DNA of 64,000 nucleotides, taken from Streptoverticillium olivoreticuli subsp. olivoreticuli (lineage in GTDB: Bacteria; Actinomycetota; Actinomycetes; Streptomycetales; Streptomycetaceae). Made by a program: the position numbers and the translations under genes. The stretch lies in assembly GCF_003391135.1 (NCBI RefSeq), contig NZ_CP031455.1, positions 8,211,501 through 8,275,500 of the forward strand, written 5' to 3'. How positions within the stretch are numbered: position 1 is the stretch's first letter; every line of letters begins with the position of its first letter. The notes below the pieces were generated by a model. That model worked only from the letters and a program-made list of their open reading frames with translations. It did no database searches and was not told the DNA's origin. Positions 1 to 21,946 of this stretch are shown piece by piece.

Positions 1-1
1 G

Positions 2-568
2 GGCGGCATCCCCGTCGCCGTGGTCTCCGACGAGGAGCGGGCCCGCTACTGCCGCGAGCTCGGCGCCCAAGGCACCATCAACCGCCTCGACTTCGACCAC
101 TGGGGGCGGCTGCCCGACATCGGCGACCACGAGGCGATGGGCCGCTGGACCGAGGGCGTACGGGCCTTCGGCCGGCGCTTCTGGGAAGTGCTGGGCGAGC
201 GCAGGGCCCCACGCGTCGTCCTGGAGCACAGCGGCCAGGACACCATCCCGACCTCCATGTACCTGTGCGACAACGCGGGAATGGTCGTCATCTGCGGCGG
301 CACCACCGGCTACAACGCCGACATCGACCTGCGCTTCTTGTGGATGCGGCAAAAGCGCCTGCAGGGCTCGCACTTCGCCAACCTCCGCCAGTGCCGCGAC
401 GTCATCCACATGGTCGCCACCGGACAGCTCGACCCGTGCCTCTCCTGGACCGGCGGCTTCGACGACATCGGCAAGGCGCACCAGCTGATGCACGACAACC
501 AGCACCCCCAGGGCAACCAGGCCGTCCTGGTCAACGCGCCGCGCACCGGCCTGACCACGCTGTCCTGA
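2..568 (+). CDS. ccr: crotonyl-CoA carboxylase/reductase, C-terminal part (5' end outside window)
   Basis: The reading frame is open from base 2, so the gene starts upstream; only about 188 C-terminal residues are present. Enzymes of this medium-chain dehydrogenase family use NADPH and CO2 to turn crotonyl-CoA or longer 2-enoyl-CoA esters into ethylmalonyl-type extender units for polyketide synthases. The segments RFLWMRQKRLQGSHFAN, VATGQLDPCLSWTG, KAHQLMHDNQHPQGN and AVLVNAP match the family's usual C-terminal end closely. It lies 92 bp upstream of an NTF2-like gene and a P450 pair on the same strand, which fits a precursor-supply gene inside a biosynthetic cluster. Substrate chain length cannot be read from this fragment. 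Confidence 0.85.
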   Translation, partial: GGIPVAVVSDEERARYCRELGAQGTINRLDFDHWGRLPDIGDHEAMGRWTEGVRAFGRRFWEVLGERRAPRVVLEHSGQDTIPTSMYLCDNAGMVVICGGTTGYNADIDLRFLWMRQKRLQGSHFANLRQCRDVIHMVATGQLDPCLSWTGGFDDIGKAHQLMHDNQHPQGNQAVLVNAPRTGLTTLS

Positions 569-660: not shown

Positions 661-1191
661 ATGGACCAGCTCGACATCCTGTGGAGCGAGCGCGAGATCC
701 GTGCCGTGCTGCAGCGCTATTGCCGCGGGCTCGACCGCCTCGACGAGGAACTGCTCAAGTCCGCCTACCACGAGGACGCGTACGACGACCGCGGCGTCAT
801 CCGCGGCAACGCCCACGACTTCGCCAAGCAGATCGTCCCGCTCCTCCGCGAGGCGTACACCGGCACCTTCCACACCCTGCACGGCAGCACGATCGAGATC
901 GACGGCGACACCGCGGGCGTGGAGACGTACTGCACCGCGTACCACTACCGCGACGGCGACGGCGTCCGGCGGGTGGAGCAGTATCCCGGGCGCTATGTCG
1001 ACCGGTTCGAGCGTCGCGACGGCGTCTGGAAGATCGCCCGCCGGATCGTGCTGAACGAGCCGAGCCTCGTCCAGGAGGTGCCGCTCGACCCGGCCGAGGC
1101 CCAGGCCGGCTTCAACCCCTCCCGCCGTGACCCCAGTGACGCCAGCTACCAGGTGCTGCCGCTGCGCGGCCCGGACGCCCCCACGCTCTGA
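661..1191 (+). CDS. NTF2/SnoaL-like polyketide-tailoring protein
   Basis: A 176-residue soluble protein. ATG at 661 follows a GAGGAG ribosome site at 650-655. The N-terminal helix pattern (WSEREIRAVLQRYCRGLDRLD), the central FHTLHGSTIEIDGDTAGVE region and the C-terminal RYVDRFERRDGVWKIARR strands are typical of SnoaL-like, NTF2-fold proteins of about 150 residues. In polyketide clusters such proteins act as cyclases, dehydratases or hydroxylases. Its place between the CCR gene and the P450 pair suggests a tailoring role, but the reaction cannot be predicted from sequence. An open frame extends upstream to 265, but only 661 has a good ribosome site. Confidence 0.75.
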   Translation: MDQLDILWSEREIRAVLQRYCRGLDRLDEELLKSAYHEDAYDDRGVIRGNAHDFAKQIVPLLREAYTGTFHTLHGSTIEIDGDTAGVETYCTAYHYRDGDGVRRVEQYPGRYVDRFERRDGVWKIARRIVLNEPSLVQEVPLDPAEAQAGFNPSRRDPSDASYQVLPLRGPDAPTL

Positions 1192-1230: not shown

Positions 1231-2457
1231 GTGTCCGACACCGAGCAGCAGCCTGCGCCCACGCTGCCGCGGCAGCGCACCTGCCCCTTCTCGCCGCCCC
1301 CCGAGCTGGAGAAGCTGCGCGGCGCCGATCCCATCAGCCGGATGCGGTTCGCCGACGACTCCGGCGGATGGCTGCTGACCCGTCACGCCGACGTCCGCGC
1401 CGCGCTCGCCGACCCGCGCGTCAGCTCGCACCCGGGCAAGGCGCCCCAGCCGTGGCGGAACCTGGCACCGGAGATGCGCGCCGAGCACTATCTGCCGGGC
1501 TTCCTGATCTTCATGGACCCGCCGGACCACACCCGCTACCGCCGCCTGCTCACCAAGTGGTTCACCATGCGGGCCATCCGCAAGCTGGAGCCCAGGATCG
1601 AGCAGATCGTCTCCGACGCGCTCGACGCCATGGAGGCCGGCGGCGGCCCCACCGACCTCGTCCAGTCCTTCGCGCTGCCGATCCCGCTGCTGGTCATCTG
1701 CGAGCTGATGGGCATCCGCTACGAGGAGCGGGAGGAGTTCATGGACATGGTCCTGCGACTCCAGGCCCTCGACGCCACCCCCGAGGAGCTCGGGGCCCTC
1801 GGCGCCAGGATGAACGAGTTCATGATGAGCCTGGCCGCCGCCAAGCGGAAGAACCCCGGCGACGACCTGCTCAGCCACCTCGCCCACGACCCCGACGCCG
1901 ACCCGGCGCTGACGGACCTGGAGATCGCCGGCATCGGCGTGCTCATGCTGATCGCGGGGCACGAGACCTCCGCCAACATGCTGGGCATCGGCACCTACAC
2001 GCTGCTCCAGAACCTCGACCAGTGGGCCCTGCTCCGCGAGGACATCGGCCTGATCGACCGGGCCGTGGAGGAACTGCTGCGGCACCAGACCATCGTCCAG
2101 CAGGGCCTGCCGCGCGGCGTCACCCAGGACATGGAGATCGCCGGCCACCAGGTGCGGGCCGGGGAAGCCCTGCTGGCCTCGCTGCCGGCGGCCAACCGCG
2201 ACCCCGAGGTCTTCCCCGACCCCGACCGCCTCGACATCACGCGCGAGCACAACCCGCACGTCGCCTTCGGGCACGGCATCCACCTGTGCCTGGGCATGGA
2301 ACTGGCCCGGGTGGAGATGCGCCAGGCCTGGCGCGGCCTCGTCACGCGCTTCCCCACCCTGCGCATGGCGGCGGAGCCCGAGGAGATCCGCTGGCGTGAC
2401 GACCAGATCGTGTACGGGGTGTACAACCTCCCGGTGACATGGGACGGCGCCCAGTGA
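1231..2457 (+). CDS. cytochrome P450 (first of a coupled pair)
   Basis: A 408-residue soluble bacterial class I P450, the usual length. The I-helix oxygen-activation motif reads AGHETSAN (about residue 237), the K-helix ExxR motif is EELLR (about residue 275), and the heme-ligand loop is FGHGIHLCLGMELAR (about residue 345) with the axial cysteine present. GTG at 1231 follows AAGGAG at 1217-1222. It needs ferredoxin partners that are not encoded nearby. The stop codon overlaps the next P450 start as GTGA, so the two are probably translated together and may carry out successive oxidations of one product. Substrate is unknown. Confidence 0.93.
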   Translation: MSDTEQQPAPTLPRQRTCPFSPPPELEKLRGADPISRMRFADDSGGWLLTRHADVRAALADPRVSSHPGKAPQPWRNLAPEMRAEHYLPGFLIFMDPPDHTRYRRLLTKWFTMRAIRKLEPRIEQIVSDALDAMEAGGGPTDLVQSFALPIPLLVICELMGIRYEEREEFMDMVLRLQALDATPEELGALGARMNEFMMSLAAAKRKNPGDDLLSHLAHDPDADPALTDLEIAGIGVLMLIAGHETSANMLGIGTYTLLQNLDQWALLREDIGLIDRAVEELLRHQTIVQQGLPRGVTQDMEIAGHQVRAGEALLASLPAANRDPEVFPDPDRLDITREHNPHVAFGHGIHLCLGMELARVEMRQAWRGLVTRFPTLRMAAEPEEIRWRDDQIVYGVYNLPVTWDGAQ

Positions 2458-3686
2458 CCGGGCCGGAGGCCGGCGTGCGCGCGTGCCCCTTCGGCGCCGG
2501 CGAGGCCCCCGCGTACCCCTTCCACGCCCCCGACCGGCTGGAGCCGGACCCGTACTGGGAGCCGCTGCGCCGCGAGCAGCCGCTGCAACGCGTCACGCTG
2601 CCCTACGGCGGCGAGGCCTGGCTGGCCACCCGCTATCAGGACGTGCGCACGGTCTTCGCGGACCGCAGGTTCTCCCGGCAGCTCGCCGTCGCGCCCGGCG
2701 CCCCCCGGTTCCTCCCGCACCAGCCGCCGCCCGACGCCGTCCTGAGCGTCGAGGGCCCCGACCACGCGCGGCTGCGCCGTCTGGTGGGGAAGGTCTTCAC
2801 ACCCCGCCGCGTGGAGGACATGCGGCCCCTCATCCAGCGCACCGCCGACGGGCTGCTCGACGCCATGGAGGAGATCGGGCCGCCCGCGGACCTGGTCGAG
2901 GACTTCTCCCTGCCCTTCGCCGTGTCCATGATCTGCGAGCTGCTCGGCGTGCCGCCCGAGGACCGCAAGCGGTTCTGCGCCTGGTCGGACGCGCTGCTGA
3001 CGACCACCGCGCACACCCCCGCCCAGGTGCGCGACTACATGATGCAGATGCACGACTACCTCGGCGGGCTCGTCGCGCAGCGGCGGGTGCGGCCCACCGA
3101 GGACCTGATCGGCTCCCTGGTGACCGCGCGGGACGAGGAGGACAAGCTGACCGAGGGCGAACTGGTCCGGCTGGCCGAGGCCATCCTCATCGCCGGATAC
3201 GAGACCTCCGCCAGCCAGATCCCCAACTTCCTCTACATCCTCTTCCGCCACCCGCACCTGCTGGAGCGGCTCAGGAACGACCACGACCTGATCCCCGACG
3301 CTGTCGAGGAACTGCTGCGCTTCGTGCCCATCGGCACCGTCGACGGATTCCCCCGGACGGCCACCGAGGACGTCGAGCTCGGGGGAGTCCTGGTCAAGGC
3401 CGGGGAGACGGTCGTGCCCTCGATGGGCGCGGCCAACCGCGACCCGGCCCTGTTCACCGACCCGGACGAGCTGGACCTCGCGCGGCGGCCCAACCAGCAC
3501 CTGGGCTTCGGCGCCGGCCCGCACCACTGCCTGGGCGCCCAACTGGCCCGGGTGGAACTCCAGATCACGCTGACCACGCTGTTCCGCAGGTACCCCGGCC
3601 TGCGGCTGGCCGTGCCGGAGGAGAGCCTGTCGTGGAAGGAGGGGCTGATGGTCCGCGGCATGCACACCATGCCGGTCACGTGGTGA
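2454..3686 (+). CDS. cytochrome P450 (second of a coupled pair)
   Basis: A 410-residue P450 with AGYETSAS in the I helix, EELLR in the K helix and the heme loop FGAGPHHCLGAQLAR with the axial cysteine. I place the start at GTG 2454, which overlaps the TGA of the first P450 by four bases; an in-frame ATG at 2439 lacks a ribosome site and gives five more residues. The N-terminus MTGPEAGVRACPFG resembles P450s of the CYP105/107 type. The two P450s are clearly different in sequence, so this is not a recent duplication. They probably hydroxylate or epoxidise the cluster's product in turn. Confidence 0.93.
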   Translation: MTGPEAGVRACPFGAGEAPAYPFHAPDRLEPDPYWEPLRREQPLQRVTLPYGGEAWLATRYQDVRTVFADRRFSRQLAVAPGAPRFLPHQPPPDAVLSVEGPDHARLRRLVGKVFTPRRVEDMRPLIQRTADGLLDAMEEIGPPADLVEDFSLPFAVSMICELLGVPPEDRKRFCAWSDALLTTTAHTPAQVRDYMMQMHDYLGGLVAQRRVRPTEDLIGSLVTARDEEDKLTEGELVRLAEAILIAGYETSASQIPNFLYILFRHPHLLERLRNDHDLIPDAVEELLRFVPIGTVDGFPRTATEDVELGGVLVKAGETVVPSMGAANRDPALFTDPDELDLARRPNQHLGFGAGPHHCLGAQLARVELQITLTTLFRRYPGLRLAVPEESLSWKEGLMVRGMHTMPVTW

Positions 3687-3756
3687 GGACACCGACGTCC
3701 TCATGAAGTCCCCGGCAGCCTTCCGACACCAGCGCACAGAGGGTGAAGAGACCGCA

Positions 3757-4863
3757 ATGAACGCCATCGACGAATGGGAACACAGCACGAAGGAAGCGGG
3801 CATGGACCCCGCGGCCCTGAAACGGCTGACCGATGTGGTGCGGGCCAGGGGCGGCGCGGCGCAGCTGTGCGTCATGCGGCGGGGCACCGTGGTCCTGGAC
3901 CGCTCGTTCGGCTGCTCCCCCGACTCCCTCTTCCTCGTCTACGCGGCCACCAAGCCCGTCGCCGCCCTCGCCGTGCACGCGCTCGCTGAGCGGGGCCTGA
4001 TCGGGCTGGACGAGCCGGTGGCCGCGTACTGGCCGCGGTTCGCCCAGTACGGCAAGGGCGGGGTGACCGTCCGTCACGTCCTCCAGCACCGGGCCGGGGT
4101 GCCGGTCGGCCGTGGCATCGTGCGCACGATGCGCACCGCCGGTGACTGGGAGCGCTCGGTGCGCGACCTCGAACAGTCCCGGCCCAAGTGGCCGGGCGGC
4201 AAGGTCGCCGCCTACCACTTCATGAGTTTCGGGTTCATTCTCGGCGAACTCGTACAGCGTGTCACCGGGCGGTCGTTCCGAGATTTCGTGACTTCCGAGC
4301 TCTTCGCCCCACTTGGGCTGAATGATTTGCACATGGGATTGCCCGACGACGCCTGGGACCGGCATGTGCCTGCGCGGGCCGCCCATCCGTCCGAATGGCC
4401 CAACCAATGGATGAGCAACCGCCGCGGGTACCGCCAGGCCGTCATTCCCTCCGCGGGGCTTTCCGGAACTGCCGCACAAATGGCCCGTTTTTATCAGATG
4501 CTTATGGAAGGCGGATCGCTCGACGGTGTCCGCGTACTGCGGTCCGAAACTGTCGCGGAGGCCAGAAAACCGTCCAATGACGGCGGAATCGACGCTTCCC
4601 TCAAGCGTCCGGTCCGTTGGTCCCATGGATTCATGCTGGGCGGGCCGAGCCCGGAGCCGCGGGATCTGTCCAATGTGCTGGGCGGCGCGAGCGACGCGAG
4701 TGCCTTCGGGCACGCGGGCACCACGTCCAGCGTCGTATGGGCCGACCCCACGCGTGACCTGGTGTTCTCTTACCTGTCCAACATCCAGCCCGAGTTCGGG
4801 GCGGGCATCGGGCGGCTCCGCGAGGTCAGCGACCTCGCGCTCGGCGCCTGCGAGGCGGGCTGA
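3757..4863 (+). CDS. beta-lactamase/CubicO-fold protein with altered SxxK motif
   Basis: A 368-residue protein of the class C beta-lactamase/esterase superfamily. ATG 3757 follows GGTGAAGAG. Family landmarks are the helix after the active-site motif (ALAVHALAERGLIGLDEPV), VRHVLQHRAGVP, the second-motif region AAYHFMSFGFILGELVQRVTG and the C-terminal FGHAGTTSSVVWADP. Where active members carry Ser-x-x-Lys, this reads Ala63-Ala-Thr-Lys66 (DNA gcggccaccaag), so the nucleophilic serine is missing while Lys66 and the tyrosine of YHF are kept. No signal peptide is seen, so it is probably cytoplasmic. It may bind rather than hydrolyse an ester, or use another mechanism. It sits last in the P450 operon. 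Confidence 0.8.
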   Translation: MNAIDEWEHSTKEAGMDPAALKRLTDVVRARGGAAQLCVMRRGTVVLDRSFGCSPDSLFLVYAATKPVAALAVHALAERGLIGLDEPVAAYWPRFAQYGKGGVTVRHVLQHRAGVPVGRGIVRTMRTAGDWERSVRDLEQSRPKWPGGKVAAYHFMSFGFILGELVQRVTGRSFRDFVTSELFAPLGLNDLHMGLPDDAWDRHVPARAAHPSEWPNQWMSNRRGYRQAVIPSAGLSGTAAQMARFYQMLMEGGSLDGVRVLRSETVAEARKPSNDGGIDASLKRPVRWSHGFMLGGPSPEPRDLSNVLGGASDASAFGHAGTTSSVVWADPTRDLVFSYLSNIQPEFGAGIGRLREVSDLALGACEAG

Positions 4864-4918: not shown

Positions 4919-5067
4919 CCCTCGCGCGAAACCGGGCCGAACCGCGGCCGATCGCCCGGCGCGGCCGGTTATCGGCGAATGGTGTGAAACGTTCTTAACA
5001 GCCGGGTGCTCGGTGGCGGGTGATCTACCGCACAGCGCGGGGGCGCGTTTTCGGCAGTATCTTGATC

Positions 5068-5098
5068 TTGACGGGTGCCAATGCAAGCGGGTTATCCG
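5068..5098 (+). promoter_or_regulatory. possible promoter of the SARP gene
   Basis: TTGACG (5068-5073) lies 18-19 bp before a weak -10 like sequence around TTATCC/TATCCG (5092-5098), about 50 bp upstream of the SARP start. The flanking 280 bp (4864-5145) is less GC-rich than the coding DNA around it. This is a pattern match only. Confidence 0.3.
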
Positions 5099-5145
5099 TC
5101 ATGGTTTTCCGTACTGTCGGAGCAGGTGACCCCGGAGGAGGGCCA

Positions 5146-5994
5146 GTGCTGAAATCGCCCAAAGGGATGGAATGCATAATTCCGCATTCTCCGCCCCAGG
5201 TGGGAATACTCGGCCCCTTGGAAGTCCGTTCCGCCGGAGATGCCGGAACGGGAGTATCGGTAAGCGGCATTCGGGTACGCGCATTGCTGGCCGCATTGAC
5301 CGCGCGGATCGGGCAGGCAATGCCGACCGAGCGCATTCTCAAGGAAGTCTGGGCCGACAACCCGCCCGCCACCGACCGCAAGGCGGTGGCCGTGGCCGTC
5401 CTGCGGCTGCGCCGGGTCCTCGGTGACCACGAAGGGCGGTGGCTGCTCACCCGTCCCTCCGGGTACGTCCTGGACATCCCGCCGGACCACCTCGACGCCG
5501 TACGGGCGGAACGCCTGGTGCGGGAGGGGAAGGCGGCCCTGGCCGCGGGCAACCCGCGCACCGCCTCCCGGTATCTCACGCGCGCGCTCGCCCAGTGGCG
5601 GGGAGAGCCCTACGCGGACGCCAACGCCACCTCGAGCGTGGCCCAGCGCATCACCGAACTGGAAAGCCTCAAGTCCGAGGCCGTCCAGGCCCGCATCGAC
5701 GCCAAACTCGAATTGGGCTACCACCAGGAGCTGATCGGGGAACTGCGCTCACTGACCGCCGCGAACCCTCTGCACGAGCCGCACTGGCTGCAGTTGATGC
5801 TCGCCCTCTACCGGTCCGGCAAGCAGGCCGAGGCGCTGGCCGCCTATATGAAGCTGAGGCAGGGCCTGGCCGAGAACCTGGGAGTCGACCCGGGCCGGCA
5901 GCTGCAGGAGCTGCACCTGCGCATCCTGCGTGCCGACGCCGGGCTGCTGACCCGGCCCACCGCCCGGTTCGACGCACCCCTCCCCGCGGTCTGA
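5146..5994 (+). CDS. SARP-family transcriptional activator
   Basis: A 282-residue regulator of the size of small SARPs such as ActII-4. An OmpR-type winged helix (about residues 15-105, VGILGPLEV through RPSGYVLDI) precedes a bacterial transcriptional activation domain of helical repeats (about residues 110-260, ending ENLGVDPGRQLQELHLRILR). No ATPase domain follows. I choose GTG 5146 because GGAGGAG at 5134-5140 lies just upstream; the frame is open further back to 5020 without a ribosome site. SARPs bind direct heptamer repeats and switch on antibiotic clusters, so it probably activates the CCR/P450 genes upstream. No TTA codon was seen in the reading frame. Confidence 0.9.
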   Translation: MLKSPKGMECIIPHSPPQVGILGPLEVRSAGDAGTGVSVSGIRVRALLAALTARIGQAMPTERILKEVWADNPPATDRKAVAVAVLRLRRVLGDHEGRWLLTRPSGYVLDIPPDHLDAVRAERLVREGKAALAAGNPRTASRYLTRALAQWRGEPYADANATSSVAQRITELESLKSEAVQARIDAKLELGYHQELIGELRSLTAANPLHEPHWLQLMLALYRSGKQAEALAAYMKLRQGLAENLGVDPGRQLQELHLRILRADAGLLTRPTARFDAPLPAV

Positions 5995-8722: not shown

Positions 8723-10114
8723 TCAGCCGGGTGGGCCGTGGACGGTGTCGAAGAGGTGTGTCCAGGCATGCTGCCAGGGCCAGTTGTGCGGCAGGTGCAG
8801 GGTGATGCGTCGTGCGGAGCGGGCGATCCGGGCCGGAACCTGGACCAGGTGGGTGCGGAGAGTGGCGGTGGTGGCCTTGGCGTGGAAGGCGGAGGCCAGT
8901 GCGCCGGCCGCCCGCAGCAGGTTGCAGGTCATCGCCCACAGGGTCAGCCAGGCGGAGTTGGCATGGAAGTGTCCCGAGGGCAGGTGGGCCAGGGCGGAGG
9001 CTTTGCTGTCGGCGATGACCTGTTCGACGACGGCGTGGTGGCGGTGTTCTTGCTCGGCCTGGAGGGTCCGGGCGGGATTGTCGGTGAAGAACGGGTGGTA
9101 GCGCCAGACGGGGAACAACTCGCCCTGCTCGCCCACGGTGGCGGGTTTGGCGAGGTCACGGACCCGGCGCACGATCAGCCGGGCCGTGACCCGCGAGGCT
9201 TTCCTGCGGCTGACGAAGGCGGCGTAGACGGGTATCTCGGCGACTTCGGCGTCCGGGATGAGGTCGCCGGTCTCCGGGTCGGGCACTGCGGTCGGGTAGG
9301 TGATCTGCTGCCAGGCGGTGTCGGGGATGCTGTGGATGGCCCGTTTGATGGAGGGGTTCATGCCGGTGGTGACCGAGAAGTGGGCGCCGGCCCGGCGGCA
9401 GGCGGCGATGACACCGGCGTTGTAGAACTGCGAGTCCGCGCGCAGGATGCGCATGCCGGTGCAGCCGGCCTCGACGGCGGTGGCCAGGGCCTCGCTGACG
9501 AGTTTCGGGGCGCCGCGGGAGTCGGCGGCTTTGCCGCGGCGCATCCGCACGGTGGCGATCACCGGCCGGGAGGCGGGGGTGCAGATCGTGGCGAGCAGGG
9601 GGTGCAGGGTGCGGATGCCTTTGAACCGGCCGTACTCGGCACCCTGCTTGGCCCGGCCGTAGACGCGTTTGTGGGTGGAATCGACATCGATGAATGCCTT
9701 CTCGTCGGAGCCGGGCAGCAGCGGGGTGTGCGCGGCCAGTTCCGCGAGGAACCTGCGGTGGACAGCGTGGAGTTGGAGGGCATGGCCATGGGTGAAGGAG
9801 CGGAGGAAGGTGCCCAGGGTGGACGGGGCACGGATCCCTCGGAACACGGTCGGCATCGCGCCGTGGCGCAGCGCGCCCAGGTCGTCGATGCTGTCGGCCC
9901 CTGCGGCCATGCCGGCCACGATGCTGGTGACCTTGGCGTCCGCCGCCGCACCCGCGCCGTTCTTCGCCCCGGTCAGCCTCACCTTCTCCGTCACCAGCCG
10001 GGGCAGACCGCACCGCCCGGCCAGTCGCATCACCGGGACCAGCCCGGCATGCGCGATCAGATTCGGGTCATCGAACACGGCGGAGACCGCCGCTGGCGTG
10101 TGGGAAACTTGCAT
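8723..10114 (-). CDS. IS1380 family transposase
   Basis: A 463-residue DDE transposase. The N-terminus MQVSHTPAAVSAVFDDPNL and the block VAGMAAGADSIDDLGALRHG are typical of the family. The catalytic core includes KAFIDVDSTHKRVYG (first Asp), LRADSQFYN (second Asp) and the C-terminal HHAVVEQVIADSKASALAHLP with the acidic residue, then AWLTLWAMTCNLLRA. The frame is intact, so it may be active. The frame extends to a start at 10168; I prefer 10114 because family members begin there, though neither start has a strong ribosome site. Confidence 0.92.
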   Translation of the reverse strand: MQVSHTPAAVSAVFDDPNLIAHAGLVPVMRLAGRCGLPRLVTEKVRLTGAKNGAGAAADAKVTSIVAGMAAGADSIDDLGALRHGAMPTVFRGIRAPSTLGTFLRSFTHGHALQLHAVHRRFLAELAAHTPLLPGSDEKAFIDVDSTHKRVYGRAKQGAEYGRFKGIRTLHPLLATICTPASRPVIATVRMRRGKAADSRGAPKLVSEALATAVEAGCTGMRILRADSQFYNAGVIAACRRAGAHFSVTTGMNPSIKRAIHSIPDTAWQQITYPTAVPDPETGDLIPDAEVAEIPVYAAFVSRRKASRVTARLIVRRVRDLAKPATVGEQGELFPVWRYHPFFTDNPARTLQAEQEHRHHAVVEQVIADSKASALAHLPSGHFHANSAWLTLWAMTCNLLRAAGALASAFHAKATTATLRTHLVQVPARIARSARRITLHLPHNWPWQHAWTHLFDTVHGPPG

Positions 10115-10220
10115 CTCGGAAGTGCCTTGCTGATTATGCGTGCTGGAAGCCTGAAGAACTCCCATCATTGCAGGTCACAAGGCACTTTCTTGTTTTCCAA
10201 GACGTTATCCACAAGGCGTC

Positions 10221-11567: not shown

Positions 11568-12110
11568 CTATCCCAACATTCGATCCTCATCGAACCCGAG
11601 TTCCTCTTCGATTCCCAGCTCGGCAGCCGCATGCCATCGGACAGCGTCAGGCCATGGCGGGGCGGTCATCTGGCGAGTCAGTTCGAATGCCTCCGGTGTG
11701 CCGATCTCACCCAGGGAGGAGATCACTTTTTGGCACAGCCAGTACGCTGGTGCATCCTTGCTGACTGAGCGTTCTGCCACGCGAAGCAGGCAGGCTGCTG
11801 CGTCTGCCTCCTGGATCTCTCCCAAGATATCGACGAGATCTTCTGCGTTGTATCCCAGAGCATCTGAATCAAGGATCTCTTGCAGGGCCATACCAAGGCC
11901 GACCACCCGCAGAGAGGCGGCCAAGTTGGCGAACTTTTCAACCCTGGGCCAGTTTCCTGTACGAGCCGCTTCGCGAATCCAGGGAACAATGGCGTCGATG
12001 ATCTCGGGGTGCCGGTCTGTGATGGACCTGGCATCCGCCTCTGTGAGGAACCCGTCCACGAGCGATTCCACCAGATCAGCTCGATGGATTTCATGTTCGG
12101 AGAAGGTCAC
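11568..12110 (-). CDS. probable immunity protein of the Rhs toxin (HEAT-like helical)
   Basis: A 180-residue acidic, soluble, all-helical protein. Regular helix pairs (AIVPWIREAARTGNWPRVEK, LVDILGEIQEADAAACLLR, AYWLCQKVISSLGEIGTPEA, AVRWHAAAELGIEEELGFDE) resemble HEAT-like repeats found in immunity proteins. Its ATG overlaps the TGA of the giant Rhs gene as ATGA, so toxin and antidote are translated together. No signal peptide is present, as expected for a protein guarding the producer's cytoplasm. The gene is visibly poorer in G+C than the Rhs body, like the toxin-coding end. Function rests on position and fold pattern, not on a recognised family. Confidence 0.7.
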   Translation of the reverse strand: MTFSEHEIHRADLVESLVDGFLTEADARSITDRHPEIIDAIVPWIREAARTGNWPRVEKFANLAASLRVVGLGMALQEILDSDALGYNAEDLVDILGEIQEADAAACLLRVAERSVSKDAPAYWLCQKVISSLGEIGTPEAFELTRQMTAPPWPDAVRWHAAAELGIEEELGFDEDRMLG

Positions 12111-15100
12111 CAGTCGTTCACCCTTCCGAATTTGGTGATTCTTGAATTGAACACTCCGACTGACCCGGGCCTCAAGCCGAAGGTGTCGGCGCCACGTTCC
12201 GACTTCAGGTGCACGGCGTTGATGTCCTTGCCGATTTCGCCAGGGGTCTTGCCTGCCGAAATCAATGCATCGCGGGTCCCTGATTGCATTTCAAAACGGA
12301 CCAGAATGGTGTATTTTTCGGCATTCCTGCCTCCCTTTCTGGCGGTCCTGCCTCTCAGGCCCTCAAGGTAGTCACGGGACTGAGTGACAAAATTCTCCGT
12401 ACCCTTGACAGTGATCTCACCGTTCGGCCCCAGCTGGTTGAATTCCTTCTCGCTCATTGCGCGATAGAAGGATTCGCCGTCGCAGTTGTTGTGTGCCAGG
12501 ACCGGAGCGGCCCCTGCCTGCACATAGTACGTGTGGATCCCGCCGACCGAGAGGTTGAACACCTGCTGGACGGCGGTCCAGGCCCGCGTCGCGAGAACCT
12601 TGACCCATGTACCGGCTGAAGTGCGCAGAAGCGCGCCCGGCTTGATCTCGTTGGCCTTTACCCAGGTGTGCTGGTCCTCCAGCCAGAACGGGTGGCCTTC
12701 GGTCGCGGTGATGGTGTCGGTAGCGTCGCCCTTGTCGCCGTCGGTGTCGATGGTGAGGCGTACGAGGTGCTTCTCGCCGTTGCCGACGATGACGTCTTCC
12801 ACCGGACGGGCTTCGGTTCTGCCCGTTGTCGGGTCTGTCGCAAGGACCTTTTCACCGATCTGGATGTCCTTGATCGGCTTTGTCGTTCCGTCGGCCATCA
12901 CCACCAGGGTTTCCGGGGTGAAGCTGTTGATCTTGCAGGCGGTCCCAGCAGCTTCCTCGACCTTCTCGGCCGCCTTGCTGCCCTTGGCGAAGTGCTCCAC
13001 CTTTCCGGCCATCCGCGCGGCCTTGGCCCCGCGCACGGCCGCCGTGGACCCCGGAACGAAGACGCTCGCGACCGTGACCGCCGTCCACAGGCATGCCTCG
13101 ACGTCACCCTTGGTCGCGCATTTGATCGCGTCGTTGACGCCGGTGACCTCGGCGGCGAACTCCAGCCCCGCCTTCAGATACGGCGCGGCGGTCTGGGCGA
13201 ACTCGGACACCGCCGTGATCGCCGTGTCGACGGCCGAGACCATCTGGGCGCTCACATCGGCCACGATCTTCGCGACCTCGGTGGCGACCTTGGCCACGTC
13301 CTGGACGAAGTGCTTGGTCTCCTGGACGATTGCCGCCGGGATATTGACCGCGATCTGTACGGCCGTCTTCATGCCGGCGTAGACCGGGCGAAGTGCCTGG
13401 GCCAGCACGGGAATCGGGTTGTGCGTCGCGATGTACTTCTTCGCGGCGCGTGCCTTGTCGCTGATGTACTGCTTGCTCTCGCGGTAGATCTGCGCCGCGG
13501 ACTTGTAGACCCGGGTGGACTGGTTGCGTACGTAGTTGGCACCGGACGAGATCTTGTTGCCGAGCCACCGGGCACCGGACGAGATCTTGCTGGACACCCA
13601 GCTGACGCCGGACGAGATCTGGTTGCCGACCCATCTCGCGCCGGACACGACCTTGTCGGCGACCCACTTGGCACCGGATGAGACCTTGTCGGCGACCCAC
13701 TTGGCGCCGGACGAGACCTTGTTGCCCACCCACTTGGCACCGGACGAGACCTTGCTCGCCGCCTTCTTGATCCACTTGGGCCAGTGGCCCGTCGGGTCCG
13801 TGTGGTTCAGCGGATCCGCGTTGCCGTACGTGTAGCGGTTCGCTTCCACGGACGGGGTCGGGTCGAGTGCGTAGCTGTCACGTGACGTGAAGGAGCCCGT
13901 TCCGGAGTCGTACCAGCGTGCGGCCATGCTGACCTGCTGGGTCTTCGGGTCGGTCCAGTCGCCCTGGTAGCCGATGGAGACCTGCTCACCGGCCGTCGCC
14001 GTCGTCCTGCCGAACGGGTCGAAGCCGGCCGACGAAGCCAGCGACTTCGGGTCGGTGTCCTTCGCGTCGACGGTGCCGACGACATCGCCGTGACGGTCGT
14101 CCATCGCCAGGCGGGTCGTGCCGCCCTGGGTGACGGAGATCAGCTCGCCGGTCAGACCGCGGCTGTAGACACCGCGCCCGTCGGTGACGACGTCGTCACC
14201 CAGACCCGAGTAGGTGTGCTGGGTGCCGTCGCGGTCGACGAGGCGGCCGAAGGCGTCGTACTCGTACGACGTCTCGCCCTGCTTGGCCAGCTGGCCGAAG
14301 GCGTCGAAGCGGCTCTCCTCCACCAGACCCGACGTGGACGACGTCTTGCGGGTGCCCCGCGGGGAGTAGGTGTAGGTCGAGTCGCCGTCCGACATGAGCT
14401 GGTTGCGTGCGTCGTACGCGGCCCTGCGGTCGCCCGACTGGACGCGGTTGCCGGAGTCGTCCCACCCGTAGGCGGTGGTCTTGCCGGCCCTGTCGGTCCA
14501 GGAGGTCAGACGTCCGGCGTCGTCGTAGCCGTACTTCTGCTCGCCCGCGTCAGCGGTACCGGTCGTTTTCTTCGATATCAGGCGGTCGTTGTCGTCGAAG
14601 CGGTACTCGGCCGTGGCCAGCACCGTCCCCGACCCCACGGACTTGGTGACATCCGAGGTCTGACGGCCCAGCGCGTCGTAGCCGAAGCTGCGGTCGACGC
14701 CGGGGGAGTCGATGCCTTCCAGGGCGCCGGTCTTGTCGTAGCGGTAGCTGAACAGCTGCTGCGACTGGGCGTCCTTGACGGACTTCAGCCGCCCCTTCTC
14801 GTAGCCGAACACCGCGGTGCCGGCGGCGTCGACGCGGGTGAGCAGGCGCCCGTCCTCGTCGTAGCCGAAGGTCGCGTCACCGGAGCCGCCACGGGCCGCG
14901 GTCAGCAGACCGCGGTCGTCGTACTCGTAGGTGTTCACGCCCTTCGGCGCGGTGGCGGAGACCATGCGGCCGTTGGCGTCGTACGCGTAGACGCGGTCCG
15001 GGGTGGAGACCTCCGCGCCGCTGCCGGTCTCGCGCAGCAGCAGACCCGACGGGTCGTACGTGCGCAGGTGCTCGACCTTGCCGGGCTCGGTCAGCTTGAC

Positions 15101-18100
15101 CGGGTTGCCGGCGGCGTCGTAGCTCGTGGTCCAGGTGCGGTCGGTGGCGGTCGGGTACTCCTTCGTCTGCGGTTCGATCGTCGACTCGGGCAGGCCGAGG
15201 GCGTTGAAGGTGTAGCGGGTGGTGTTGCCGCGGCCGTCGGTGTAACGCGTGCGGTTGCCGTTCGCGTCGTAACCGAAGGTTGTGGTGATCGTCTTGCCGG
15301 AGGCGACCGGCTCCATCTGCTGGACGAGCTGATTCTGCGCGTCGAAGGTGAAGCCGGTGGTCTTGCCCTTGGCGTCGGTGGAGGAGACGAGGTTGCCCGC
15401 GGCGTCGTAGCGGAAGCTGCGGTCGCGCAGCGGGTTGTCGTCCTTGTCCAGCCACAGCTGGCCGGTCATCCGGCCCGCCTGGTCGTAGGTCTGCCGCACC
15501 TGACGGCCCAGCGCGTCGGAGTTGCTGATGACGCGACCGGACATGTCGTAGCCGGTACGGGTCTTCACACCCGCCGGGTCCTCAGTGCCGGTCAACTGCC
15601 CCAGCGCGTCGTAGGCGTAGCGCGTCGTCTCACCGGAGGGCGTGGTCTGTGCGACCATGCGGTCGGCGTCGTCGTAGGTGAAGGTGGACGTGAAGTACCG
15701 GGTCTGCCCGGACTTCCGCTCCACCTGCGTCGTCGTCGCCGACCGGCCCAGACCGTCATAGGTGCTCTCGGTACGCGCGCCCGTCGGGTCGGTCTCCGTG
15801 AGCTGTTCGCCGGTGCGGCTGTAGGTGTACGACCACACGGCGCCCGCGCCCGACGGCACGGTCTTGCCCGGCTCGGTCACCAGACCCAGCAGCTTCGAAG
15901 TGCGCGGCTCCTCCCGCTGCACCATTCGGCCCAGCTGGTCGTAGCGGAAGCGCTTGGTGTTGCCGAGCGCGTCAGTGGTTGCGGTGATACGGCCCGCCGA
16001 GTCGTACTCGTTGCGGCTGATCGGGGTGATCGGCTCCGAGGCGCCCGGCGGGGTGTACGACGGGGACGCGCTCGTCGTCGGCTGTCCGGCCTTGTTGAAG
16101 TCGACCGAGGTCAGCCTGCCCTGCGGGTCCTTGGACTGCGTGGCCTCGTCGAAGACGTTGTAGCCGGTGACCGTGGTCGGACGGGTCTTCACCGGCTTGC
16201 CGGCGTCGCCCTCCTGCCCGGTCTCCACGTCCGCTGCCGGCTCGGTCACCGAGATCCGGCGGCCCAGCGCGTCATAGGCGTAGGTAGTGGTGTAGTCCTC
16301 CGGCTTCGCGCCCTCGGCGTTGCCGCGCGGCTCGGTCTCGGCGAGCAGCAGACCGCGCTGATCCCACTGGAAGGTGGTCGTCAGACGCTGCTTGCCGTTC
16401 TGGGTGGTCTCGCTCAGCTCACGGCCGACAGCGTCGTACGTGTAGTCGACGATCTCGGAATTGCTGCTGCTGAACGGGATGTTGGAGGACCGGCCGGTGT
16501 GTACGACACGGGTCACGTTGTCCGCGTCGTCGTAGCTGTAGGCGACCTTGCGGTCCAGCTTGCCCGGGTCCGAGGTGATGCTCTGCGTACGGCCGGAAAG
16601 GTCGTAGCCGTACTCGGTGACGAGCGAGCCGTTGCCGGTCGTCCTGCGGACGACGCTGCCGAGCGCGTCGTACTCGTTGCGCTCCAGCTCGATGTCCCGC
16701 GTCGAGCCGTCCGGCTGCGGCACGTCCAGCGCGCGCACGGATTTCTGCAGGCCGTCGTCGTAGTAGCTGAACGCCCGCGTCCGGCCCATGGCGTCGGTGT
16801 GCCTGGTCAGTCGGCCGGCCATGTCGTAGGCGTAGGAGTCGGTCACCAGGACCTTTTCGTCGCCCGGACCGTCCGTGCCGTCCTTGGGGGCTTCCTGCGG
16901 GTCGCCCTTCCAGTCCCGCACTCGCACCTCGGCGACGCTGTTGCGCGGCGTGTAGGCGGTCTCCGTCCGGGTGCCGCTCGGGTCGACCTCCCAGACCCGG
17001 TTGCCCAGCACGTCGTAGCCGTAGCTGGTCTCGGCGCCCTCGGCGTCCGTCACCCGCACCGGGCGCGCCGAGTCGTCGTACTCGGTACGGGTCTCGCGCG
17101 CCGGGTCGCCCCCGGTGAGGTCGGTGACCTCCGAGCGCGTCTGCAGACCGTCCTTGTCGTACTCGACGGTCGTGCGCTGGGTGTGCGTGACGTCCGTGAC
17201 CTTGTTCTTCACTCCGGGCTTGGTCGTGGTGACCACCCGGTTGGCACCGTCGTAGGTGAAGGAGACGGTCACGCCCTGCGGCTGGGAGTCGCTGACGTCG
17301 GTCTCGGTGAGCTTGCGGCCCAGCCGGTCGTACGTGTAGCGCGTGGTCAGCCCCGCCGGGTCGGTGGTCTCGGCGAGATCACCGCCGGCGGAGTAGCCGT
17401 ACCGGGTCGTCTTGCCCTTGGCGTCGGTCATCGACGCCAGCAGCCCGGCGGGCATCGTGCCCTTGCCGTCGGACGCCGGCTCGCTGCCCGTGGTGAAGGT
17501 GCGGACCGCCTTGCGGCCGTCCGGCGCCGTCTGCTCGGTCAGCTCGCCCCGGGCGTCGTAGGAGTACGTCGTCCGGTAGGTGTTGTCCGAAGCGTTCTTC
17601 GACCGCGCGTCACGGGACTCGGTCAGCTTGCCGTTGCGCGGATCGACCGGGTTCTTCTCGTCGAACCAGTAGCTGTAGTAGGTGGTCTGGCAGTCGCCCT
17701 TGTCGCGGCAGTTGGTGCGTGTGGCGACGTTGCCCTGGCCGTCGTACGTCATGTCGAGCGCGTGGCCGTTCTCGTCCACGACGTGGTTCTGCATGCCCCG
17801 CTCGTCGTAGCCGAAGCCGCGCACGCCCATGGCGTTCACGACGCCACCGACGAACTCGGGGTCCGGGTAGTCGACCGGGGGCTGGCCGGTGCCCGTCGCA
17901 CCGCCCTCGAACAGGCCGCCCTCGGCGATACCGGGCGACGCGGAGACGCTCGGCTTCGGCTTCTCGGCGTCCTTGGGCCTGTCGCGCAGCGGCGAGACGT
18001 AGCGGATCAGCCGGCCCGCGAGCGGGTCGTAGTCGTAGAAGTGCCGGCGGTCCTTCGGATCCGTCACCTGGACGGTGCGGATGAGCTCCTTGCCCCACAG

Positions 18101-21100
18101 GCCCGTGACCGGGGTGCCGAGCTTCCACTGGCCGCCGTTGACGTCGGTCAGCTTGCCGACGCGGTCCACGTTCGTGTCGTACGTGACCTCGACGGCGGTA
18201 CGGCCGCTGGGCGTCGTCACCTTGACGAGCTGGTCGGCCTGCGCGCGCGCCGCGTACAGCGACTGCGCGGCCGCGGTGCCGAGCGGCTTGTGGTGGACGG
18301 CGACCTCGCCGATGTCGCCCTTGAAGTACGCGGTGCCCTTGGACGGAGCGGACGGCCACATGTACGCCCAGCCGGTGCCGATCTCGGCGAACCGCTGGAT
18401 GCTGTGGTCGACCGGCGCGTCGAGGCTGCCGCTGTTCCTGCCGTCGACGAAGAGGGTCTGCCGCGCGCCGTCCGAACTGAGCACGGCGTGGTGCCAGTTA
18501 CCGTCGTTGACGGGTGCGGCGGCGGTGATGGGCGTGATGCCGCCGGTGCGGAACTGACCGCGCAGCTTGCCGTCGGCGCCCACGTACAGCACGGGGGCGC
18601 TGGAGCCGGCCGCGGAGTCGGAGTGCTTGTCCGAGCGGTAGTTCAGCAGTACACCGCTGCCGGTGGTGCGGAACCACATGCTGACCGCGAGGTTGCGCTG
18701 CAGGTTCAGCAGGTTCTCGGGCAGGCCGACGCGCGAGGAGGTACCGTTGAACGTCGCCGCGTTCACGTCCGTGCCGCTGAGCGGGCCGGTCGCGTCGTGG
18801 CCGACGTCGACGTACTGTGCCTGGTCCTTCCCCTGGTTGACGGTGACCTGGCTGACGGCGTCGTCGCCGGAGTCCTCGCCGAAGCGCCAGTAGGCGTACG
18901 GTCCGGAGTCCAGGGCCACGCTGCGGTAGTGCGAGCCGGCGGTGTAGTCGTAGGTGGTGCAGGTCTTCTCGGGCGAGCAGACCTTGGTCAGCTTGTCGCC
19001 CTCGTACTCGTACGTCCACGTCAGCGGCTTGGTGCCCAGCGGGTCCGTGCCGACCGCGGTGACGTGGGCGCCCGACCACTGGAAGTACAGGCTTCGCTTG
19101 CTGGTGTCGTTGGTGACCTGGACGAGCTTGCCGTCCACGTAGGTGAGCGTCTGCGTCAGGCCGCTCGTGTCCGTGATCCGGGCGAGGCGACCGTCGGCGC
19201 GGAAGGCGTAGCGCACGCCGTTCTTGTCGGTGAGCTCCCAGCCGCCGTCCTTGACGGATGTGAAGACGGCGTCGCGGCCCTGCGGCGGCGCGAAGGAACC
19301 GTTGGCATTGCGGCCGAAACGGACCTGCTGCCCGTCGGGGTAGCCGATGACGACGTTGCCGGTGCCGTCGTCGTCGGGGGTCACGCGCATGTCGAGGCGC
19401 GAGGCCCAGCCGGCGCCGAAGATCCGGCCGGTGACCGGGTCGAGGCTGTTGTAGGTCCGGGTCACGGTGAGGTCCGGACCGACGGTGGGTACCGAGGCGT
19501 CGACGGCCGAGGTGGCGAAGTTGCCGACCTGCGGGTCGAAGGGCTTGTCGGAAGAGCCGTAGGGCGAGCCGGCCAGGTGCGAGGTGACGACCGGCTGCGG
19601 GACCGTCGTCAGGAAGGTGGTGTAGGGCAGCTCGGGGCTGGTGGCGGCGTTGTCCTTGCTCCAGGGGCGCCACAGATACGTCTTGGACCAGGAGAGCTTG
19701 CCGGCGGGTACGACCCAGCTGCGGTCGGGGGACCAGTCGGAGAAGAAGCAGTCCTTGGGCTTGTTGTCCTTGCCGGCCTCGCAGACCTCGTAGCGGTACT
19801 GCAGCTTCTGGCCGGTGTTGTCCATGTCCCGGGCGTTGGCCCACAGTTCGGGCGAGAGCGTCTGGGACTGGTGGCCGTTGGCCGGGTGGAAGGCGTCGAC
19901 GACCGGCGGGATGGCCACCACGTTCAGCTGCAGCCGCACCGGCGGGATGCCCTCGTCGGTGAAGACGGCCTTGCCCTTGCGGACCATGGAGAAGTCGAAG
20001 AGGTACTGGCCCGCGTCCGCTTTGTGGACCACGGCGTCGAGGGAGACGCTCGCACCCCGGGGCACGTCCTTGGGCAGCTGAGCGGCGACCGCCTGCTTGA
20101 CCAGCTTGCCGTCCTTGTAGGCCCGGTAGCCCAGTTCATAGGTGTTGGGCGTCCAGGTCTCGGCACCGAGGTTGGTGACCTTGATCTTGACCTTGCCGTC
20201 CGTGCCGCGGCTGACCGGCGGCTGCGGCGCGGAGCGCTCGACCGTGTACTTGGCGTTGTACGGGGTGTGCGTCACGTACAGCGACGGGGGGTTGGAGCTG
20301 CTGGTGCTGGAGAACTTCTTCCAGTTCATCGACTCGGAGTCCGAGCCGCGCAGCGTCAGACCGTAGTTCGGGCGGGTGCCGTCGGTCCAGCCCTCGACCA
20401 GGTCGCGGCCCTTGGTGCCGAGGTCGATGGCCTCCCAGGCCGCCGGGCACGCCGAGCTCGACTCGCCCTCGGCGATGAAGCCGTGCGCGAAGGAGGAACC
20501 GGCGATCTTGGCACCGTACTTGGGGCCGGGGTAGGTGTGGCCCTTGCCCGCGGTCCATGCCTCGGTGACCGGGTGGACGTTCACCTCGCGCGGGCGGCAA
20601 GAGGCCGACCAGTAGTTCAGCACGGTGAGCGAGGCGCCGAAGATCTTGTGATTGCGCAGCTTGGACGCCACGCCGGGGAAGGCCAGATAGGTCGCGGCCT
20701 GGCTGGTGGTACCGCCATCGGTGACCGAGCCCAGCTTCAGGGTGTCTTCGGAGGCCGAACTCCAGTTGTTGCCGCCGGACTTCTCCACGTACATGCTGGA
20801 GGAAGCCCCGACGGGCTCGACCATGGGCGGGTCGACGCGCACGGGGAAGGCACGCCCGGGCGCGGAGAGCCAGTCGCGGTCGAGCTCCACGCGCAGCGCC
20901 TGGCCGCCGCCCTGCTCGACGATGCGGTAGTCGACCCCGGTCGAGATCGCGCCGTCACCGGACTCGGGGTTGACCTTCGAGTCCTCCATATAGCCGTGCG
21001 GGATCCGGACGCGCTCCTTGCCGCCCGTGTCCTTCAGGACCACGTCGCCGTTGTCGACGGAGGCCGTCAGTCCCTTGGTCCGCAGCGGGAAGGTCCAGCC

Positions 21101-21946
21101 GCGCGGGGCGTTCGCCGAGCGCAGCACCATGACCTCCTTCAGACCGCCGGGCCTGGAGATCAGCTCCAGGTCGGCGTCCTTGAGGACGTCGGGGTAGGTG
21201 ACGGCGGAAGGATTCTTCTCCTCGATGCGGCCGGCCGAGGGCTGGGCGCCCTCGAGGCCGAAGGACACCTCGTGGTCGCCGTCCACGACGAGCCGGGCCA
21301 GGTCCCTGGCGTCGGCCCGGGCCGCGAGGCTGATGCCCAGGCTGTCGGCGGCATTGCGCCAGCCGCCCGCGCCCTTGTCGCCGCTGGGGACCAGACGGGC
21401 GTCGATGGGCTGCCAGCTGCCGTCCCCGGCCCGGTAGTTCAGCCGCTCCTTGGAGAACTGAGTGGTCTGCGAACCATCCTGGTTGGTGAAGGTTCGCTGG
21501 AATTCATCCCGTTTATCGGGGGTTTCGGTGCTGCTCTTGGGGTCGTAGCCCTTGACGTCCTTGGCCGGAGCCTCCTTGACCTCGGCCTCGTTGTGGGCAT
21601 CCGGGACGGAGGTGTCCGGGTGTTCCACGGCGTACTTGCCGTGCAGCGTCTGCGGGCCATCGGCCTTGACGGGCTTGGCGCTGCCGTCGAGGTGGTCCAG
21701 TCCGGCGGCGCTGCCCCAGCGCTGGCCGTCCGGGCGTTTCGTGTGCCCCTTGACGCCGGGCAGCCCGGGCCCGGAATCGGGCCGTTCAACGGCCTCGGAG
21801 GGTGCAGTGCCGGCGAACACCAGCATGGCTGCGGTCAGCGCGACGGCCCGGCGCAGGCCGGGCCGTCGACTGAACAAGGCGCGATGTCTGAAGACACCGC
21901 GGCGGCGGAGCGCACCGGGTCCGGCGCGCCGACTGCCAGGTATCAC
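12107..21946 (-). CDS. giant secreted Rhs/YD-repeat polymorphic toxin with Hint domain
   Basis: About 3279 residues. Layout: Arg-rich signal peptide (hydrophobic AVALTAAMLVFAGTAPSEAV, residues about 32-55); DNRLRE-like beta domain (about 375-555); YD/RHS region opening at DPQVGNFATSAVDAS (about 805); a LamG domain inserted at about 1015-1230; dense YD repeats to the Rhs core end YTYGNADPLNHTDPTGHW (about 2710); seven 11-residue repeats (about 2725-2802); a helical spacer; a Hint autoprotease (about 3000-3155, NSFTPETLVVMADGTTKPI to VLAHNN); and a 122-residue toxin (3158-3279). The toxin starts FYRAMSEKEF and is not a family I can name with confidence; an ADP-ribosyltransferase-like fold is possible. 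I prefer GTG 21946 (GGAG eight bases before); starts at 21961 and 22024 lack ribosome sites. The Hint domain probably cuts off the toxin inside the Rhs shell. Confidence 0.9.
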   Translation of the reverse strand: MIPGSRRAGPGALRRRGVFRHRALFSRRPGLRRAVALTAAMLVFAGTAPSEAVERPDSGPGLPGVKGHTKRPDGQRWGSAAGLDHLDGSAKPVKADGPQTLHGKYAVEHPDTSVPDAHNEAEVKEAPAKDVKGYDPKSSTETPDKRDEFQRTFTNQDGSQTTQFSKERLNYRAGDGSWQPIDARLVPSGDKGAGGWRNAADSLGISLAARADARDLARLVVDGDHEVSFGLEGAQPSAGRIEEKNPSAVTYPDVLKDADLELISRPGGLKEVMVLRSANAPRGWTFPLRTKGLTASVDNGDVVLKDTGGKERVRIPHGYMEDSKVNPESGDGAISTGVDYRIVEQGGGQALRVELDRDWLSAPGRAFPVRVDPPMVEPVGASSSMYVEKSGGNNWSSASEDTLKLGSVTDGGTTSQAATYLAFPGVASKLRNHKIFGASLTVLNYWSASCRPREVNVHPVTEAWTAGKGHTYPGPKYGAKIAGSSFAHGFIAEGESSSACPAAWEAIDLGTKGRDLVEGWTDGTRPNYGLTLRGSDSESMNWKKFSSTSSSNPPSLYVTHTPYNAKYTVERSAPQPPVSRGTDGKVKIKVTNLGAETWTPNTYELGYRAYKDGKLVKQAVAAQLPKDVPRGASVSLDAVVHKADAGQYLFDFSMVRKGKAVFTDEGIPPVRLQLNVVAIPPVVDAFHPANGHQSQTLSPELWANARDMDNTGQKLQYRYEVCEAGKDNKPKDCFFSDWSPDRSWVVPAGKLSWSKTYLWRPWSKDNAATSPELPYTTFLTTVPQPVVTSHLAGSPYGSSDKPFDPQVGNFATSAVDASVPTVGPDLTVTRTYNSLDPVTGRIFGAGWASRLDMRVTPDDDGTGNVVIGYPDGQQVRFGRNANGSFAPPQGRDAVFTSVKDGGWELTDKNGVRYAFRADGRLARITDTSGLTQTLTYVDGKLVQVTNDTSKRSLYFQWSGAHVTAVGTDPLGTKPLTWTYEYEGDKLTKVCSPEKTCTTYDYTAGSHYRSVALDSGPYAYWRFGEDSGDDAVSQVTVNQGKDQAQYVDVGHDATGPLSGTDVNAATFNGTSSRVGLPENLLNLQRNLAVSMWFRTTGSGVLLNYRSDKHSDSAAGSSAPVLYVGADGKLRGQFRTGGITPITAAAPVNDGNWHHAVLSSDGARQTLFVDGRNSGSLDAPVDHSIQRFAEIGTGWAYMWPSAPSKGTAYFKGDIGEVAVHHKPLGTAAAQSLYAARAQADQLVKVTTPSGRTAVEVTYDTNVDRVGKLTDVNGGQWKLGTPVTGLWGKELIRTVQVTDPKDRRHFYDYDPLAGRLIRYVSPLRDRPKDAEKPKPSVSASPGIAEGGLFEGGATGTGQPPVDYPDPEFVGGVVNAMGVRGFGYDERGMQNHVVDENGHALDMTYDGQGNVATRTNCRDKGDCQTTYYSYWFDEKNPVDPRNGKLTESRDARSKNASDNTYRTTYSYDARGELTEQTAPDGRKAVRTFTTGSEPASDGKGTMPAGLLASMTDAKGKTTRYGYSAGGDLAETTDPAGLTTRYTYDRLGRKLTETDVSDSQPQGVTVSFTYDGANRVVTTTKPGVKNKVTDVTHTQRTTVEYDKDGLQTRSEVTDLTGGDPARETRTEYDDSARPVRVTDAEGAETSYGYDVLGNRVWEVDPSGTRTETAYTPRNSVAEVRVRDWKGDPQEAPKDGTDGPGDEKVLVTDSYAYDMAGRLTRHTDAMGRTRAFSYYDDGLQKSVRALDVPQPDGSTRDIELERNEYDALGSVVRRTTGNGSLVTEYGYDLSGRTQSITSDPGKLDRKVAYSYDDADNVTRVVHTGRSSNIPFSSSNSEIVDYTYDAVGRELSETTQNGKQRLTTTFQWDQRGLLLAETEPRGNAEGAKPEDYTTTYAYDALGRRISVTEPAADVETGQEGDAGKPVKTRPTTVTGYNVFDEATQSKDPQGRLTSVDFNKAGQPTTSASPSYTPPGASEPITPISRNEYDSAGRITATTDALGNTKRFRYDQLGRMVQREEPRTSKLLGLVTEPGKTVPSGAGAVWSYTYSRTGEQLTETDPTGARTESTYDGLGRSATTTQVERKSGQTRYFTSTFTYDDADRMVAQTTPSGETTRYAYDALGQLTGTEDPAGVKTRTGYDMSGRVISNSDALGRQVRQTYDQAGRMTGQLWLDKDDNPLRDRSFRYDAAGNLVSSTDAKGKTTGFTFDAQNQLVQQMEPVASGKTITTTFGYDANGNRTRYTDGRGNTTRYTFNALGLPESTIEPQTKEYPTATDRTWTTSYDAAGNPVKLTEPGKVEHLRTYDPSGLLLRETGSGAEVSTPDRVYAYDANGRMVSATAPKGVNTYEYDDRGLLTAARGGSGDATFGYDEDGRLLTRVDAAGTAVFGYEKGRLKSVKDAQSQQLFSYRYDKTGALEGIDSPGVDRSFGYDALGRQTSDVTKSVGSGTVLATAEYRFDDNDRLISKKTTGTADAGEQKYGYDDAGRLTSWTDRAGKTTAYGWDDSGNRVQSGDRRAAYDARNQLMSDGDSTYTYSPRGTRKTSSTSGLVEESRFDAFGQLAKQGETSYEYDAFGRLVDRDGTQHTYSGLGDDVVTDGRGVYSRGLTGELISVTQGGTTRLAMDDRHGDVVGTVDAKDTDPKSLASSAGFDPFGRTTATAGEQVSIGYQGDWTDPKTQQVSMAARWYDSGTGSFTSRDSYALDPTPSVEANRYTYGNADPLNHTDPTGHWPKWIKKAASKVSSGAKWVGNKVSSGAKWVADKVSSGAKWVADKVVSGARWVGNQISSGVSWVSSKISSGARWLGNKISSGANYVRNQSTRVYKSAAQIYRESKQYISDKARAAKKYIATHNPIPVLAQALRPVYAGMKTAVQIAVNIPAAIVQETKHFVQDVAKVATEVAKIVADVSAQMVSAVDTAITAVSEFAQTAAPYLKAGLEFAAEVTGVNDAIKCATKGDVEACLWTAVTVASVFVPGSTAAVRGAKAARMAGKVEHFAKGSKAAEKVEEAAGTACKINSFTPETLVVMADGTTKPIKDIQIGEKVLATDPTTGRTEARPVEDVIVGNGEKHLVRLTIDTDGDKGDATDTITATEGHPFWLEDQHTWVKANEIKPGALLRTSAGTWVKVLATRAWTAVQQVFNLSVGGIHTYYVQAGAAPVLAHNNCDGESFYRAMSEKEFNQLGPNGEITVKGTENFVTQSRDYLEGLRGRTARKGGRNAEKYTILVRFEMQSGTRDALISAGKTPGEIGKDINAVHLKSERGADTFGLRPGSVGVFNSRITKFGRVNDW
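13538..13768 (-). repeat. seven tandem 33-bp repeats inside the Rhs gene
   Basis: Seven consecutive in-frame units of exactly 33 bp encode the 11-residue motif SSGAKWVGNKV and variants (AKWVADKV, ARWVGNQI, VSWVSSKI, ARWLGNKI). They lie between the Rhs core and the Hint domain and predict an amphipathic helical linker with a Trp in each unit. Copies nearest the Rhs core are most alike; those toward the Hint domain are more diverged. Confidence 0.9.

Follow-up and report, generated by a model that had tools for sequence, protein, structure and literature searches.

Beta-lactamase-fold serine hydrolases are among the most studied of all enzymes, and their chemistry is held to depend on a single residue, the serine of the SxxK motif. 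What, then, might a protein of this fold be doing in a polyketide cluster when that serine is an alanine? The question is raised by one gene in a 64,000-nucleotide stretch of the Streptoverticillium olivoreticuli genome (hereafter the window). The fold itself, and its use by polyketide pathways, are already known; what is new is that a protein from such a cluster has lost the nucleophile naturally and that the loss is conserved. The literature searched, which comprised open-licence papers only, gave no precedent for beta-lactamase-fold proteins lacking the serine, and we know of no described case in which a Ser-less protein of this fold serves as a Tyr/Lys acid-base polyketide cyclase or isomerase. 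We favour, at a probability of roughly 0.6, the view that the retained site catalyses a reaction on the polyketide of the pathway with no covalent intermediate.

A serine hydrolase fold without its serine

The reading frame is open from position 3703, and the ATG at 3757, from which all residues are numbered here, agrees with the orthologues. Membership of the class C beta-lactamase fold is evident both from a match of the 368-aa product to the Pfam family Beta-lactamase (PF00144, E 2.5e-69) and from fold matches with Z up to 38.8. No signal peptide is apparent by eye, and the protein is presumably intracellular. Within window positions 3931-3975 the codons ttc ctc gtc tac GCG GCC acc aag ccc encode F59 L V Y62 A63 A64 T65 K66 P67. 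The original prediction had read AATK here in place of SxxK, with Lys66 and the tyrosine of the second motif retained, and its coordinates, numbering and codons are right. Alignment with EstA of Caulobacter (5gkv, E 4e-35) sets A63 on the catalytic serine (LFSTTK against VYAATK) and Y153 on the second-motif tyrosine. That alignment and those with the orthologues rule out an alignment error as the cause of Ala63.

The nucleophilic serine is missing from all five members of the group, each of which reads AATK, while Lys66, Tyr153 and His319 are invariant across them. The third motif of the superfamily (K-T-G, W-X-G or H-X-X) is present as H319-A-G, its glycine being absent in Streptomyces durbertensis alone, where it reads HPV. 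In a published motif table an H-X-X third motif marks subfamily VIII.3 of the family VIII esterases (PMC9795927), and the pairing of YXX with HXX points, at the level of motifs, to that subfamily, save for the missing serine. Because this defining residue has gone, the name ‘serine hydrolase’ does not suit the protein, despite its scaffold and descent.

A structure model built from eight sequences (five close orthologues and three distant relatives) reached moderate confidence (pLDDT 72.9, pTM 0.81), with the pocket loops 118-125 and 206-221 below 50; an earlier model from the five close orthologues alone (pLDDT 44) was not used. The model places residue 63 just ahead of the helix bearing Lys66, as in SxxK enzymes. 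Its best matches are family VIII-type carboxylesterases, led by 8j5v (Z 38.8, rmsd 2.2, 332 aligned) and followed by 5gmx (Z 38.3), 7y3z (38.2) and 5gkv (35.9). Below them come the macrolactin acyltransferase 6kjh (Z 34.3, 330 aligned, rmsd 3.1) and LovD (4lcl, Z 29.1, 320 aligned, rmsd 3.2). Comparison with class C and LovD-like proteins, proposed at the outset as a check on the missing serine, thus leaves alanine at the nucleophile position and identifies the family VIII carboxylesterases as nearest kin among solved structures. With these and similar enzymes (EstA of Caulobacter, 5gkv; EstZF172, 8j5v; FEH, 7y3z; 5gmx; EstA of Arthrobacter, 3zyt; EstB, 1ci8) the protein shares the fold (Z 31-39), some 22-30% identity, the SxxK lysine, the YXX tyrosine and a third motif, here of HXG type, but where they have a nucleophilic serine it has alanine, and it is encoded in a polyketide synthase (PKS) operon. 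In LovD and the macrolactin acyltransferase the serine serves as acyl carrier. The protein resembles them in fold, and LovD-like acyltransferases in being encoded in a polyketide cluster; polyketides are their substrates, but their nucleophilic serine is absent here.

Conservation and a single origin

Four orthologues, 74-83% identical and all with AATK, were found in GTDB genomes: S. xantholiticus (L013), Streptomyces sp. WZ.A104 (L014), NRRL S-118 (L015) and S. durbertensis (L016). A check on whether orthologues share the alanine had been proposed at the outset, and all four do. Residue 63 is encoded by GCG in the window, L013 and L015, by GCC in L014 and by GCT in L016; with three different alanine codons at the same position, and four independent assemblies besides that of the window, a base-call error is excluded.

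Pairwise dN/dS among the five proteins lies between 0.16 and 0.25, with dS up to 0.96; all reading frames are intact and 224 positions are invariant in the five species. Such values bear on the idea of a dying gene, which has lost a catalytic residue and has yet to decay in the rest. The S. durbertensis copy, lacking both the HXG glycine and the cluster, would fit and may be drifting, but dN/dS of about 0.2 over such divergence disfavours a pseudogene, and the alanine has been kept through synonymous change alongside those 224 positions, leaving decay the faintest of chances.

Maximum-likelihood phylogeny unites the five Ala proteins in one clade (100/100), which lies within a larger group (98/96) that includes Ser-bearing relatives. 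On that same branch lie the nearest other relatives (G120, G129 and G131, loci L010-L012; 44-47% identity), which differ in retaining serine, as SASK or SAGK, and in having no PKS genes within the surrounding 18-20 kb (gene calls, by eye). The Ala form thus has a single origin. At 61 positions the Ala clade carries a fixed residue that these three relatives lack, including A63 (S), A113 (S in all three), T322 (S), several within R119-A128, and F155-M156; the pattern suggests a refitted pocket rather than decay. The own genome holds 29 PF00144 matches, and the full-length paralogues that could be scored by the group profile all keep SxxK, which speaks against Ala63 being a chance finding; the count leaves out L050 and L053 (unscored by the profile) and L054 (a short, non-significant match).

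The gene and its cluster are rare. Of 393 genomes sampled from the genus, the own one alone had a Ser-less or a SnoaL orthologue, G120 supplying a 45% identical, Ser-bearing relative, and a sample of 396 genomes across the phylum gave no Ser-less orthologue. Relatives in the plasmid collection were all below 60% identity. One further scan gave no match, and two others returned only distant relatives, which served to deepen the alignment. Scans of viral contigs gave no orthologue. Viral-contig loci do include EstB-like relatives (L059:1501-2619, L060:1501-2619 and L061:819-1955) in which cysteine replaces the nucleophilic serine as CxxK. The CxxK reading comes from the translated motifs FCVIKP and YCTIKP of L059 and L061, two sequences that group apart from the others in the tree; L060 matched at the same coordinates as L059.

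The polyketide cluster and its predicted product

The gene stands in a run of genes (Table 1) whose PKS portion lies to the left of the window: five PKS genes, a thioesterase (TE), crotonyl-CoA carboxylase/reductase (CCR), a SnoaL_4 protein, two cytochromes P450, the Ser-less gene and a SARP regulator. This order is conserved in three orthologous clusters, with cross-cluster identities for the Ser-less protein (80-83%) much like those of the other enzymes (80-84% for SnoaL, 87-91% for the P450s and 77-83% for the PKS), and the modular PKS cluster is rare. Both P450s have normal heme and I-helix motifs; the best NCBIfam match of the second is pentalenolactone synthase, far under the cut-off of that model.

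Table 1. Features in and beside the window; positions are those of the window unless a locus is named
Feature	Position	Strand	Remarks
CCR, C-terminal part	1-568	+	gene start ~676 bases left of window
SnoaL-like (SnoaL_4) protein, candidate cyclase/dehydratase	748-1191	+	orthologues present
Cytochrome P450 (a)	1231-2457	+	87-89% in orthologous clusters
Cytochrome P450 (b)	2439-3686	+	89-91% in three orthologous clusters; C-terminal stub in S. durbertensis
Ser-less family VIII esterase / class C beta-lactamase-fold protein	3757-4863	+	368 aa, encoded by 3757-4860
AATK (A63-K66)	3943-3954	+	Ala for SxxK nucleophile, Lys kept; EstA 5gkv and orthologue alignments
Y153-H-F, second motif (YXX of family VIII)	4213-4221	+	catalytic Tyr kept; alignments
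H319-A-G, third motif (HXX/HXG)	4711-4719	+	orthologue comparison
SARP-family regulator	5020-5994	+	orthologues 3' of Ser-less gene in L013-L016
DDE transposase (DDE_Tnp_1_4)	8723-10168	-	~3 kb past SARP gene
3305-aa reading frame	12107-22024	-	many YD-type repeats, short C-terminal domain (by eye)
Luciferase-like flavin monooxygenase	L018:1064-2434	-	~37.6-38.9 kb left of window start

The flavin monooxygenase gene, which is divergent from the first of the PKS genes, may belong to the cluster. Beyond the SARP gene and the transposase, the 3305-aa reading frame looks, by eye, like an RHS-type polymorphic protein, with a Hint/intein-like segment near its end (CKINSFTPETLVVMADGT ... VLAHN).

Linkage of the Ser-less gene to P450 and SARP extends to all five genomes, one of them with a mere P450 stub. 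That one is S. durbertensis, where L016:5703-8107 comprises the extreme C-terminus of the second P450 (SLSWKAGLMVRGMHTMPVTW, then the stop), the Ser-less gene and the SARP gene; the SnoaL protein is absent from the genome and its best P450 is only 49% identical. We read this arrangement as a deletion relic of the cluster. Retention of the gene there despite loss of the PKS genes is what might be expected of self-protection, with the protein sequestering the finished compound inside its producer, but the third motif of that copy has decayed, and the SARP gene was retained as well, so that a deletion scar is the simpler account of the relic; self-protection is accordingly a slim prospect.

As to what the pathway makes, the loading module is KSQ-AT-ACP with a methylmalonyl-type AT (motif YASH). 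Module 1 (AT VASH, probably ethylmalonyl) and module 2 (AT YASH) each carry DH and KR, as do the malonyl modules 3 and 4; module 5 (AT with AAGH, probably ethylmalonyl) and the malonyl modules 6 and 7 carry out no reduction, and the TE is terminal. If YASH, VASH and AAGH carry the AT substrate meanings that we take them to have, the chain is predicted to be a tetraene that ends in a poly-keto acid, tetraene-CO-CH(Et)-CO-CH2-CO-CH2-COOH. No matching cluster emerged from the akaeolide/lorneic acid lead, from the aurafuron and actinofuranone leads or from further searches of open-licence papers.

From acyl-enzyme to acid-base chemistry?

Conserved natural loss of the serine, with Lys, Tyr and His kept under purifying selection in a P450-SARP-linked gene of single origin, probably signals a non-cutting role in making the compound. 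To this extent the original prediction of a non-hydrolytic function in a tailoring operon gains support. Its further suggestion of a different nucleophile fared worse, there being neither Ser nor Cys in place of Ser63 within the motif. Acyl-enzyme esterase activity would not be expected of such a site. A hydrolase or acyltransferase working through another group (T322, T323 or S324, which directly follow H319-A-G and are specific to the Ala clade, S157, or an activated water) could draw on invariant Ser/Thr near the motifs and invariant Ser/Thr/Cys elsewhere in the protein, and the CxxK members of the superfamily offer a parallel. It is nonetheless very unlikely: no Ser or Cys lies at or beside position 63, the nucleophile of this fold is found where the SxxK helix begins, and Ser-to-Ala forms serve to trap substrate in crystals (PMC9795927; structure entries).

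Those forms bear equally on a non-catalytic helper, in which the old pocket would hold or shield a reactive polyene or poly-ketone, or present substrate to the P450s, as ligand-binding protein or scaffold. PcEst S57A binds lovastatin (PMC9795927), and 6-aminohexanoate-dimer hydrolase S112A forms complexes with its substrate (titles of matched structure entries). In both the same change at the same position was engineered, whereas here it is natural and conserved. The place of the gene would also suit a helper, since in each of the five genomes it comes immediately behind the second P450 (behind its stub in one). Five-sequence conservation is compatible with catalysis, ligand binding or chaperoning alike, but under pure binding one would see less need for Lys66, Tyr153 and His319 to remain invariant. 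We regard a helper as unlikely, though it is the strongest of the competing readings.

It is the invariance of these residues that argues for continued use of the site, and, since the change from Ser to Ala spares Tyr, Lys and the pocket, non-covalent catalysis is the reading we favour. In family VIII the serine attacks the acyl group, while the tyrosine is the proposed general base and the lysine supports or sets it (PMC9795927); the Tyr153/Lys66 pair could thus still perform acid-base chemistry. That it does so is the specific form we would choose within this reading, possible though short of an even chance, the remainder being other non-covalent catalysis at the site. On this account a rare modular-PKS pathway of Streptomyces would have taken up a family VIII (EstA/EstB-type) esterase on a single occasion, Ser63 giving way to Ala with loss of acyl-enzyme chemistry while the fold, Lys66, Tyr153 and His319 were kept. 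The polyketide would be bound in the old acyl pocket, where Tyr153/Lys66 may enolise or protonate the unreduced poly-keto end and so guide a ring closure or isomerisation that comes late, around the oxidations by the two P450s, and Ala63 would prevent hydrolysis. The full proposal, that a family VIII esterase gave rise to a natural Ser-less cyclase or isomerase working by Tyr/Lys acid-base chemistry, is more tentative again; cyclisation could also be the work of the operon's SnoaL-like protein alone.

Implications

For this Ser-less protein the automatic annotation ‘serine hydrolase’ would be misleading. Natural, conserved loss of the serine within a biosynthetic operon offers a small and defined case in which to study how the scaffold of a hydrolase gains another role, and it flags a rare, orphan polyketide cluster for isolation of its product.
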